Source: Hyphomicrobiales bacterium
Lineage (GTDB): Bacteria; Pseudomonadota; Alphaproteobacteria; Rhizobiales; Aestuariivirgaceae
DNA: 64,000 nt
Reading direction: 5' to 3'
Assembly (NCBI GenBank): GCA_025363755.1
Contig: JANYLQ010000061.1
Location: 1-64,000, forward strand
Shown: piece by piece, positions 23,376 to 26,191 of the stretch
How the letters are laid out: each line of letters starts with the position of its first letter
How positions within the stretch are numbered: position 1 is the stretch's first letter
The notes under the pieces: model-generated
What the model was told of the DNA's origin: nothing
Databases searched by the model: none
Seen by the model: only the letters and a program-made list of their open reading frames with translations
Program-made: the position numbers and the translations under genes

Positions 23376-23843
23376 ATGATGTCCATCCTTCTCGATGCCG
23401 CCCTGCCCGCCATTGCGGCCTTGCCCATGAACCAACGCATGATGGCCTTAGACCTTGGCACCAAAACCATCGGCGTGGCCACGGCCGATTACACGCGCGC
23501 ATTTGCTACCCCGCGCCACACAATCGAGCGCACCAAATTCACGCCCGATGCGCAATCTCTCATTAAATTTGCCGCCGCCGAAAACATCGGCCTCATCGTG
23601 CTGGGCCTGCCCTTAAACATGGACGGCACCGAAGGCCCACGCTGCCAATCCACCAGAACCTTCGCGCGCAACTTCGGCAAACTCTCGCCCCTGCCCATCA
23701 TATTCTGGGACGAACGCCTGTCGAGTTTCGAAGCCGAACAACACATGATCGAAGCCGGACTGCGCCGCGACAAGCGCCAAGCCAATATCGATAAGTTAGC
23801 AGCTGCAATTATATTGCAGAGCTTGTTAGATGCGTTGAGATAG
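23376..23843 (+). CDS. ruvX: RuvX/YqgF Holliday-junction resolvase-like protein
   Basis: 155 residues, RNase H-like fold. Conserved motifs are ALDLGTKTIGVA near the N-terminus, VLGLPLNMDGTEGP, and WDERLSSFEAE, and the acidic residues of the active site are present. Family members process 16S rRNA 5-prime ends and may act at Holliday junctions. In related genomes this gene usually precedes pyrB; here about 2.4 kb of repeats, a nuclease gene and a DUF262-HEPN pair separate them. Confidence 0.93.
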   Translation: MMSILLDAALPAIAALPMNQRMMALDLGTKTIGVATADYTRAFATPRHTIERTKFTPDAQSLIKFAAAENIGLIVLGLPLNMDGTEGPRCQSTRTFARNFGKLSPLPIIFWDERLSSFEAEQHMIEAGLRRDKRQANIDKLAAAIILQSLLDALR

Positions 23844-23844
23844 A

Positions 23845-23894
23845 GACCTCATCAGTCACTTCGTGACAGCTTCTCCAGAGGAGGAGCGTAAAGT
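23845..23894 (+). repeat. Hairpin repeat, copy A
   Basis: 50-base unit starting GACCTCATCAGTCACTTCGT directly after ruvX. It contains two stems: GTCAC-TTC-GTGAC (23855-23867) and GCTTCTCC-AGA-GGAGGAGC (23869-23887, with one G-T pair). It matches copy B at 24357-24406 nearly base for base, and pairs head-to-head with copy D at 23911-23969. Confidence 0.85.
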
Positions 23895-23905
23895 TGATAT
23901 CGGTA

Positions 23906-24319
23906 CTAACCTTCACCCTTGCCCTCTGGGGAAGGTGCCCCGGAGGGGCGGATGAGGTCCCTAGCCACACGCTCCTCCAGCACAATCAAAATACCATCAC
24001 AAACCCCAACCATATTCTCAAAAACATCCGCATTCCAAACGCGGTAAACATACAACCCCTTCGATTGCAGAAACGCCGTCCGCCTCTCATCCCGCGCCAC
24101 CTCATCCGCATCGCCATGTGTGGCCCCATCCACCTCAACCACAACGCCCCATTCATGATTGATAAAATCCACAATATATGGCCCAACAGGAACCTGCCGA
24201 TAAAACTTAAACCCACCCAAACTGCGATTGCGAAGAACGCCCCAAAGCTTTGCCTCCGCCGCAGTCGGCTCGCGCCGCATCCGCTTGGCACGGGCATAGG
24301 TGAGTGGGGTTGGGTCCAT
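23906..24319 (-). CDS. DUF559 endonuclease-like protein
   Basis: 137 residues of the DUF559 family, a small Vsr/PD-(D/E)XK-type nuclease fold. The core has YIVDF (D51), VVEVDG (E62, D64), DERR and YRVWNADV, giving the D and E-x-D active-site residues. The ATG at 24319 is preferred because an in-frame ATG at 24364 lies inside repeat copy B and would give an N-terminus made of repeat. Its last about 18 codons (IRPSGAPSPEGKGEG) are encoded by repeat copy D. The gene is enclosed by paired inverted repeats. Function is unknown; it may cut or mobilise DNA. Confidence 0.85.
   Translation of the reverse strand: MDPTPLTYARAKRMRREPTAAEAKLWGVLRNRSLGGFKFYRQVPVGPYIVDFINHEWGVVVEVDGATHGDADEVARDERRTAFLQSKGLYVYRVWNADVFENMVGVCDGILIVLEERVARDLIRPSGAPSPEGKGEG
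23911..23969 (-). repeat. Hairpin repeat, copy D (divergent variant)
   Basis: Carries GCCCC-GGA-GGGGC (23937-23949) and ends GATGAGGTCCCTAGCCACA, which is shared with inverted copy C. It faces copy A, so copies A and D form one large inverted pair around 23845-23969. The end of the DUF559 coding region lies within it. Confidence 0.75.
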
Positions 24320-24356
24320 CTGTGCACGATATGGGAATTCGAGCCCGTGGCCAAGG

Positions 24357-24406
24357 GACCTCATCAGTCACTTCGTGACAGCTTCTCCAGAGGAGAAGCG
24401 TGAAGT
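24357..24406 (+). repeat. Hairpin repeat, copy B
   Basis: 50-base unit just upstream of the DUF559 gene, nearly identical to copy A. Its stems are GTCAC-TTC-GTGAC (24367-24379) and GCTTCTCC-AGA-GGAGAAGC (24381-24399, perfect). It faces copy C about 70 bases away, making a second large inverted pair. Confidence 0.88.
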
Positions 24407-24477
24407 GCAACAACGAGCGAACCCTCTCCCTCCCGCTCCACTAAAACATAAAGTTAGACTCGCCGCTAAACCTCCAA

Positions 24478-24531
24478 CGCTTCTCCTCTGGAGAAGCTGT
24501 CGCAACGCGACTGATGAGGTCCCTAGCCACA
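24478..24531 (-). repeat. Hairpin repeat, copy C (inverted)
   Basis: Inverted relative to copies A and B. The outer stem GCTTCTCC-TCT-GGAGAAGC (24479-24497) is the same, but the inner stem is GTCGC-AAC-GCGAC (24499-24511) where B reads, on this strand, GTCAC-GAA-GTGAC. An A-to-G change in one arm is matched by T-to-C in the other, so pairing is preserved. Its ATGAGGTCCC end supplies an in-frame but probably unused start for the DUF262 gene. Confidence 0.88.
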
Positions 24532-24603
24532 GGCTGGGAACGCAATTGTGTTAGCCGCGATGTTCCGTTAGTCTTTGATAGACGCCGAGAGGACTCTAAC
24601 TAC

Positions 24604-25689
24604 ATGACAAACGATCTACTCAAAATTGAGGAAAAGACTTTTTCAGAAGATGATAGTTCTGAAGTGCCTCCTAACGATATTGTAGCGTTTAATGAACTTA
24701 GGTCTTGTTCGGATCTTTATCGAATGAAATCGCAGGGCATATTAGACATTAGCCCCGACTTTCAACGTGATGTAGTTTGGAGTCCTGCTGATCAATCGCG
24801 CTTTGTTGATTCACTCGCAAAACAATTGCCAATTCCAAGCATGTGCTTTGCGCAAGATTACACAGCTCAAAAATGGTTGGTCATTGACGGATTACAAAGA
24901 ATTTCAACCATAGTGAGGTTTCTTGAAGGCGGCGATTGGAAAATTTCAGAACTGGATGATATCGAACCAGAAATTTCCGGAGTGTCCGTTGCCGCGATTA
25001 AAACATCAAAGACATCTTTGCATCAGTACTATACGAAAATTGAAAATCTTTCTATTCCAATAACAGTTCTCAGATGTAGTTTTTCAAAAAAAAGCCACAT
25101 GGAATATCTGTTTACTATTTTTCATCGCCTTAATACCGGCGGGATGAAATTAACAAATCAGGAAATTAGAAACTGCATTTACGGCGGTTCGTTCAATGAT
25201 CTCTTGAAAGAAATTGATAGAAATAAAACCTGGCGTGCCATCAATAAAATGAAGGGTTCCAGTTCGTTTCGCTTTGCCAAGCAGGAAATTGCACTTAGAT
25301 TTTTTGCGCAAATGGATAGAAGAAAAACATATGACGGTCAGCTTGCAAAGTTCTTGAACAGTTACATGCATGATCATCGAAAACCTGAATCAGCATTTAT
25401 CGAAGAAAAACGAAACCTTTTCACCAAGACAATTAATATGGTCTATGAAAAAATATTCGACAAATCGGTGCCGAAAAGACTTCCAGTGACTATTTTGGAG
25501 TCAGTTTTGGTAGGAGTCGGAACTAATTTGGCGCATGTTGAACAACAAAATCAAACTCAAGCACAAGCAAATTTTGCGGCCCTAATGTCTGACCCGATCT
25601 TTTCTGAAGACGCTTTGTTGGAAGGATTGTCTAAAAAGAGAAGCGTAACCACTAGGCTCGATGCCGCGACAAGCCATTTCTCTCGCTAA
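24604..25689 (+). CDS. DUF262-domain protein (ParB/Srx-like nuclease superfamily)
   Basis: 361 residues. The DUF262 core has FQRDVVW (53-59), IDGLQRISTI (94-103) and FHRLNTGGMKLTNQEIRN, all typical of this ParB-like nucleotidase/nuclease family, which also forms the N-terminal half of GmrSD-type restriction enzymes. Here there is no DUF1524 HNH half. The ATG at 24604 follows AGAGGA; a longer frame from the ATG at 24514 starts in repeat copy C. It is followed after one base by a HEPN-type gene. The coding is much richer in A and T than its neighbours, suggesting acquisition by transfer. Probable defence role. Confidence 0.87.
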   Translation: MTNDLLKIEEKTFSEDDSSEVPPNDIVAFNELRSCSDLYRMKSQGILDISPDFQRDVVWSPADQSRFVDSLAKQLPIPSMCFAQDYTAQKWLVIDGLQRISTIVRFLEGGDWKISELDDIEPEISGVSVAAIKTSKTSLHQYYTKIENLSIPITVLRCSFSKKSHMEYLFTIFHRLNTGGMKLTNQEIRNCIYGGSFNDLLKEIDRNKTWRAINKMKGSSSFRFAKQEIALRFFAQMDRRKTYDGQLAKFLNSYMHDHRKPESAFIEEKRNLFTKTINMVYEKIFDKSVPKRLPVTILESVLVGVGTNLAHVEQQNQTQAQANFAALMSDPIFSEDALLEGLSKKRSVTTRLDAATSHFSR

Positions 25690-25690
25690 A

Positions 25691-26191
25691 ATGATTGCCA
25701 AGAGCTACATTCGAAAGAATCTAACATTCTATAACAAGAAATACCTGTCGTCTGGTAAGTTAGAAGCTTTGGTTTATTCGAAGATCGCCATACTTGAACT
25801 TTGCGGTTGGATAGAGTTGTCGATGGACGACATGGTACGTACTTGCGCAAAAAAAAATCTTAAATCAGCTCCGTACTTAAAACATGTAGAGAAACAAATA
25901 ATATGGAAGACTTGGGGTTTTGACTATGAGGCCGATTTTAAGGACATGATTGTAAGGTTGGTCGGACTTATAGTATTTGAAAAAATAGAGTCCAAATTGA
26001 CAAGTTCTGACCTGCAAAAATTCAAGGCAGCATTGGGAACTTTGAAAACAATTCGTAATTCAGAAGGACATACTTATCTGAAAGGATTAACCCGAAATAT
26101 TATCGCTCCTTCCGCCACTATGGCATTGCATAAAGATGTGGAGAAAGGGCTGCTGGAATTTGAAAAGCGCTTACTGCGTTACAAGGCATAG
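25691..26191 (+). CDS. HEPN-like nuclease, MAE_28990/MAE_18760-type (candidate)
   Basis: 166 residues, helical, with no signal peptide. RNSEGH at R122-H127 fits the Rx4H catalytic motif of HEPN ribonucleases and an early helix carries acidic residues (ELSMDDM). Proteins of this type are found next to DUF262 genes elsewhere, as here. The ATG at 25691 lies one base after the DUF262 stop; a longer start at 25661 would overlap DUF262. There is no strong ribosome site, so translation is probably coupled. AT-rich like its partner. HEPN assignment rests on the motif and neighbour, without a profile search. Confidence 0.7.
   Translation: MIAKSYIRKNLTFYNKKYLSSGKLEALVYSKIAILELCGWIELSMDDMVRTCAKKNLKSAPYLKHVEKQIIWKTWGFDYEADFKDMIVRLVGLIVFEKIESKLTSSDLQKFKAALGTLKTIRNSEGHTYLKGLTRNIIAPSATMALHKDVEKGLLEFEKRLLRYKA

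Follow-up and report, generated by a model that had tools for sequence, protein, structure and literature searches.

Among the described systems closest to the locus reported here is the REPtron, in which REP repeats accompany RAYT/TnpA-REP, an IS200/IS605-like HUH tyrosine transposase (outlined in excerpts of PMC3733652 and PMC8266576). Two further repeat families are relevant. The CGTC-tagged REPs are short tagged palindromes found mostly in Alphaproteobacteria, for which an excerpt of PMC3733652 reports no dedicated transposase. The BoxC/PIT/intrastrand triplex motif has a block order that supplies a third strand for a hairpin, and an excerpt of PMC4666352 describes triplex formation by the E. 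coli motif in vitro and reports no transposase or integrase remnants near its copies. On the protein side, one paper, to judge from an excerpt, assigns a DUF559 gene to the EDxHD group (PMC9403480), and an excerpt of another ties the Caulobacter DUF559 protein VsrA to cytosine methylation and proposes a role for it in VSP repair (PMC12907096). In the openly licensed papers listed by our searches, neither titles nor abstract beginnings connect these nucleases to the repeats.

The locus analyzed here lies in a stretch of 64,000 nucleotides from a Hyphomicrobiales bacterium (the window; Table 1), and we consider it probable, on the evidence set out below, that its DUF559 gene and the flanking repeats constitute a minimal mobile unit in which DUF559 is the dedicated nuclease of the repeat family. 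The first-pass annotation had described four related repeat copies in two facing pairs, with the DUF559 gene running between the pairs and ending inside the first. The positions hold up, both by the pairwise identities of the repeats and by the match of the protein to PF04480 (DUF559; 106.6 bits against a curated cut-off of 20.6, E = 7.9e-31). A and B form a direct pair with 94% identity (23842-23894 against 24354-24406), and, when aligned in register, D (23915-23973) and C (24477-24535) show 76% identity. The facing arrangement is seen in the complementarity of B to C (92% over 48 nt) and of A to D (71% over 62 nt), and the last ~20 codons of the gene do fall within unit D. Two hairpins had been ascribed to every copy, which is true of A, B, and C when folded as single-stranded DNA (z = -2.0, -2.8, and -2.4, respectively) but poorly supported for D, the most diverged copy, whose fold is no better than those of its own shuffles (z = -0.3). 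The match at the locus exceeds chance: among 1000 random pairs of stretches with the same spacing in the window, 2 reached a score of at least 20, and since the random maximum of 45.5 equals the locus's own score, it is likely to be a draw on the locus itself.

Table 1. Features of the DUF559 locus and its surroundings in the window
Feature	Coordinates	Strand	Remark
Repeat unit A	23845..23894	+	tag CCTCATC, hairpin 1, hairpin 2
Repeat unit D, diverged	23911..23969	-	codes for the C-terminal tail of the DUF559 protein
DUF559 gene, 152 aa	23906..24364	-	Pfam DUF559
Repeat unit B	24357..24406	+	DUF559 start codon inside
Repeat unit C	24478..24531	-	inverted partner of B
Travelling unit A-D-gene-B	23846..24400	.	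contiguous homology with an unrelated G016 site
ruvX, left flank, outside the unit	23376..23843	+	
PD-T4-2 A (GmrSD_N domain), right neighbor, outside the unit	24514..25689	+	
PD-T4-2 B, right neighbor, outside the unit	25661..26191	+	

The comparison with REP elements and RAYT genes made in the first-pass annotation is apt for the architecture, namely a gene flanked by tagged hairpin repeats that recur at other places in the genome. The window's repeat family recurs at four more places (on contigs C63, C29, C37, and C16), mostly as inverted pairs of ~125 bp, and the same genome carries two more DUF559 genes, both bracketed by repeats; the repeat sets of the three genes are mutually dissimilar (scores 10.5-11). 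REP copy numbers are often far higher than those of these repeats. The tag of the REPtron is GTAG, whereas the units of the window start with CCTCATC, CCTCAYC-like tags are found at many other loci, and tag and hairpin arm stand in a mirror relation. The enzymes differ as well, an HUH transposase there and a Vsr/EDxHD-like nuclease here: a Pfam scan of the window gene gave no HUH tyrosine (Y1) transposase match, and below the cut-off only MTES_1575 appeared for its product. The predicted structure of this protein (pLDDT 87.3) best matches 3hrl, the gonococcal putative endonuclease NGO0050 (Z 16.6, 44% identical), and then, as the next nearest solved structure, the EDxHD homing endonuclease I-Bth0305I (3r3p; Z 12.4, rmsd 2.8 over 95), with Vsr (1cw0) at Z 10.1 and an rmsd of 2.4 over 100. 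Six residues are invariant in 57 sequences (E37, D66, E77, D79, D92, and R95) and H83 is kept in at least 90% of them; by analogy with an excerpt of PMC12907096, these acidic and histidine residues would be those of the EDxHD/Vsr active site. The model has an EDxHD/Vsr-like fold, and DNA cleavage is predicted. The likeness to I-Bth0305I and Vsr lies in the fold and, by that analogy, in the conserved acidic and histidine residues; unlike them, the window protein is single-domain, lacks added DNA-binding regions, and is encoded between repeats. PADLOC returned only marginal matches for it (E 0.0027 and weaker).

The single locus of the first-pass annotation belongs to a wide pattern. Our genus and order sample comprised 85 of 99 DUF559 places (79 of 80 in the genus and 6 of 19 in the order), 10 of which had no full flanks, and in the remaining 75 the 400 nt on either side of the gene were compared with each other. 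A locus was counted as bracketed at a flank-flank match score of at least 20, a threshold that was chosen after the scores had been seen, with seven thresholds computed. The first-pass annotation had suggested comparing DUF559 genes with random genes for their nearness to repeat pairs, and DUF559 proved strongly enriched, as 62 of the 75 were bracketed against 5 of 597 other ORFs of the same regions, the best of these five being a GIY-YIG gene. ParE toxin genes, which served as an accessory control, were bracketed in 0 of 29 cases (30 loci, one too short). Beyond this sample, high-scoring DUF559 loci across the class were bracketed in 19 of 29 cases (two with a short flank). A wider contig set, limited to the best 80 of at least 555 matches, yielded 61 of 78 bracketed loci with flanks of at least 200 nt against 3 of 225 control ORFs, with 37 of 46 among contigs labeled Alphaproteobacteria and 24 of 32 among the others (by record title, 18 of 24 clearly non-Alphaproteobacteria and 6 of 8 that could be placed less surely). 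In the phylum scan, 14 of 27 new loci were bracketed, including 10 of the 18 from outside the class, and a plasmid collection gave 2 of 6 loci sampled from 34 records, with E. coli ycjD among the four failures (scores 9.0/8.5). With 13 of 75 loci failing the test in the genus and order and 13 of 27 phylum-wide, bracketing is strong in the genus and uneven and often weaker elsewhere. The gene-proximal tags point toward the gene at 35 of 78 loci and away from it at 1 of 78 in the genus and order, and at 21 and 8 of 78, respectively, in the wider contig set. Judged by sequence comparison, these counts establish the linkage of gene and repeats and, against the controls used, the specificity of the bracketing.

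The repeat sequences vary by locus; common to the loci is the order of the unit, consisting of a CCTCAYC-like tag, a variable hairpin or short spacer, and a hairpin with a polypyrimidine 5' arm of which the tag is a near-mirror. The DUF559-linked repeats thereby have the three-block order of BoxC, while the triplex formation described above is that of the E. coli motif. They also resemble the BoxC/PIT/triplex repeats in being G/C-rich, in forming inverted pairs, and in their wide spread, and they differ in that a nuclease gene often adjoins them, whereas an excerpt of PMC4666352 describes the E. coli copies as having no mobility genes nearby. Defined as a hairpin with a mirror block of at least 7 of 8 within 220 nt of the gene, the mirror signature was found near 81 of 85 and 77 of 80 DUF559 genes, 40 of 300 control ORFs (a subset of the 597), and 6 of 30 GIY-YIG genes. 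The 40 control ORFs would fit a compositional artifact, in which hairpin-rich intergenic DNA surrounds short genes generally, as would the larger number of hairpins in DUF559 flanks (mean 26-28, against 7 in the controls), which gives these flanks more trials and led us to make the comparison within loci. There, the own-arm mirror outscored permuted arms in 129 of 161 cases and the mirror of another locus in 136 of 161, and it beat a direct copy of the arm 103 times (worse in 50), although on average the advantage is slight (5.51 against 5.2-5.3 of 8) and the window's best unit reaches a mirror match of only 6 of 8. Control ORFs of at most 250 aa are bracketed in only 5 of 317 cases, and the reversed pattern is rare in genome scans, both of which also argue against an artifact, an explanation that we regard as very remote.

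If gene and repeats form one unit, as we favor, they should be inherited and move together. Among 63 bracketed loci, in which 1901 of 1953 pairs were classed as unrelated in context, the similarity of the flanking repeats rises with protein identity in unrelated contexts (Spearman 0.227, with 0 of 1000 permutations as high). The median flank score is 12-12.5 below 50% protein identity, 14.5 at 50-60%, 39 at 60-75%, and 128 above 75%, the last class holding 4 pairs, one of which is the window and its G003 orthologue, missed by the context filter and the only pair checked by hand for orthology. Genome G005 carries two DUF559 copies at a distance of 8 kb that share 87% identity across 676 nt, a stretch that comprises both repeats, the gene, and ~25 nt more on one side; as the copies share the repeats without outer context, the repeats moved with the gene. 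The travelling unit of the window likewise matches an unrelated site in another species, G016, without a break (74% over 560 nt), and beyond it the two sites match in further repeat units only. More generally, the homology of non-orthologous copies stops at or near the repeats. At the window locus itself, unit A is missing from the close relative G003, in which D, B, and C are retained. A few copies inspected by eye showed no clear target-site duplication.

The junction of pheS and pheT, viewed in 9 of 30 loci, is occupied by repeat-DUF559-repeat in G000, and the two genes abut in G023, G027, G025, and G002. The G016 junction has no nuclease gene but contains a repeat pair whose tags point toward each other; this pair has the same architecture as the G000 insert and is unlike it in sequence. 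A solo repeat pair of G000 is also absent from the matching place in G036. The first-pass annotation had suggested looking for sites with a repeat pair and no gene, and had reasoned that its idea would fall if DUF559 showed no enrichment near the repeats and no such sites existed; given the enrichment described above, one gene-free site with a repeat pair, and four empty junctions, the idea does not fall on these grounds. The aligned loci thus document shared inheritance, movement or duplication of gene and repeats together, and a gene-less pair. As a separate observation, this core junction takes different inserts in different species of the genus, with other small ORFs in G003 and G036 and an insert in G020. 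The 3' end of ruvX in G021 and G036 was considered as a further empty site and set aside, as the unit is absent there but similarity stops at ruvX. In Sphingomonas parapaucimobilis, a DUF559 gene lies between sufB and sufC (L360 2965-3375).

The gene-less pair with facing tags in G016 would also suit homing, in which some other process spreads the pairs and DUF559 cuts those without a gene, into which it is then copied by recombination between the arms. The rank of an EDxHD homing endonuclease directly after 3hrl in the structural comparison points the same way, as do facing-tag pairs whose gaps of ~45-110 nt leave no room for a gene, seen at several of the first places listed per genome, for example in G112 and G666. 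Set against this, the G005 copies share both repeats and no outer context, and homing by itself leaves the scarcity of the repeats in most genomes without strong DUF559 unexplained; we think homing unlikely.

That scarcity emerges from a scan for an exact pattern (CCTCAYCC, gap, CCYTCTCC), in which DUF559 matches were called strong at E below 1e-20. At least three pattern matches were found in 49 of 95 genomes of the class with strong DUF559, 0 of 31 with weak, and 11 of 261 with none, and, among 236 non-alphaproteobacterial genomes, in 31 of 40, 6 of 32, and 17 of 164, respectively; the p-values of such comparisons overstate the evidence because the genomes are related. The difference persists in non-alphaproteobacterial genomes of at least 3.5 Mb (23 of 28 with strong DUF559 against 15 of 101 without), and the genome-wide co-occurrence is, as a pattern in sequences, established. 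Most copies of the repeat reside in genomes with strong DUF559. Fewer than three matches despite strong DUF559 were found in 46 of 95 genomes of the class and 9 of 40 others. Many pattern matches and no DUF559 match were seen in G359 (32 copies), G591 (101 copies), G483, and G349, and G657 has 104 copies with only a weak DUF559 match. Repeat-rich genomes without DUF559 may reflect either gene loss or another driver.

The right flank of the window locus brings in a further explanation. Directly past repeat C lies a PD-T4-2 defense pair (24514-26191; E 2.9e-153 for A and 2e-50 for B), and since the family match of A begins at residue 32, its true start may be downstream of unit C. In G003, a close relative, this slot is taken by ThsB_TIR and SLATT genes. 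The interval between ruvX and pyrB looks like a slot for defense genes, the repeat marking its seam. That repeat C borders a switch of defense genes between close relatives would be expected if some other enzyme spread the repeats as landing sites or seams and DUF559 were a frequent passenger serving in VSP repair or in defense, the former being the role proposed for VsrA of Caulobacter in an excerpt of PMC12907096. Against hitchhiking of this kind, ParE genes, which also form a small accessory family, were unbracketed in 29 of 29 cases, and related DUF559 proteins carry related repeats at unrelated sites.

Hitchhiking is also at odds with the pairing of two nuclease families with two repeat types. 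In the genus, 30 high-scoring GIY-YIG loci were collected (L236-L265; in 28 the open frame is no longer than 217 aa), of which 21 of 29 testable ones are bracketed, many by CGTC-tagged repeats; a second nuclease family thus shows bracketing with another repeat type. A CCTCAYC tag with a hairpin lies within 250 nt of 36 of 85 DUF559, 3 of 30 GIY-YIG, and 20 of 597 control genes, and a CGTC tag with a hairpin within the same distance of 1 of 85, 14 of 30, and 13 of 597, respectively. The repeats around the GIY-YIG genes of this genus resemble the CGTC-tagged REPs described in an excerpt of PMC3733652; these differ from the DUF559 repeats in tag and structure, and their partner in the genus is GIY-YIG rather than DUF559. 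On balance, we hold the passenger explanation to be quite improbable.

For the minimal mobile unit that we favor, the following mechanism can be envisaged. DUF559 would recognize its own repeat, either as a hairpin or triplex exposed at the replication fork or as a duplex, and would nick at or near the tag. Host repair or recombination would then copy the two repeats, in some cases along with the gene, into new intergenic positions, and gene-less pairs would persist as non-autonomous repeats. Recognition, cutting, and copying of the repeats by DUF559, as well as the direction of cause, are what we infer from the patterns above. We know of no strand-transfer step for a hydrolytic nuclease, which counts against copying of the repeats by DUF559, and the reading is slightly weakened by the different sequence of the G016 pair and by tag orientation being less uniform outside the genus. 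Should it be correct, a nuclease could spread repeats without a transposase, and DUF559, a family without known function, would have a testable role as the candidate cause of widespread repeats of unexplained origin. More tentatively, and with the odds perhaps slightly against it, hydrolytic homing-type nucleases might form a second repeat-spreading class beside the HUH enzymes, with DUF559 driving BoxC-like repeats and standalone GIY-YIG nucleases driving CGTC REPs, so that every repeat type would have a nuclease of its own. On this reading, long-orphan repeats would be the non-autonomous partners of tiny nuclease genes that occur across many phyla and also in E. coli K-12. This would provide candidate partners for the CGTC REPs and for the E. 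coli triplex motifs, as these are described in excerpts of PMC3733652 and PMC4666352.

The occurrence of ycjD and the repeats in E. coli strains makes repeat spread directly testable. ycjD, the E. coli DUF559 gene, lies between sapF and fabI and was found there at a query coverage of at least 80% in 3362 or 3364 of 5426 genomes (two scans). Its repeat pair is on the downstream side only, and laboratory strains, among them BW25113, BL21(DE3), and MC1061, carry ycjD with the adjoining pair. The 41-nt E. coli unit is probably BoxC, to judge by its copy number, with ~20 places in K-12-like genomes against 23 reported motifs. In a spread sample of 60 rows, from which one plasmid row was dropped, the median number of repeat places was 22 in 37 chromosomes with ycjD against 7 in 22 without, a difference that probably follows lineages, the two being inseparable here. 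The sapF-fabI interval was discarded as a clean empty site, as three strains without ycjD have an efflux operon there. One 4.8 Mb E. coli record labeled as a plasmid, NZ_OL790696.1 (L356), includes the sap-fabI region and is apparently a chromosome.
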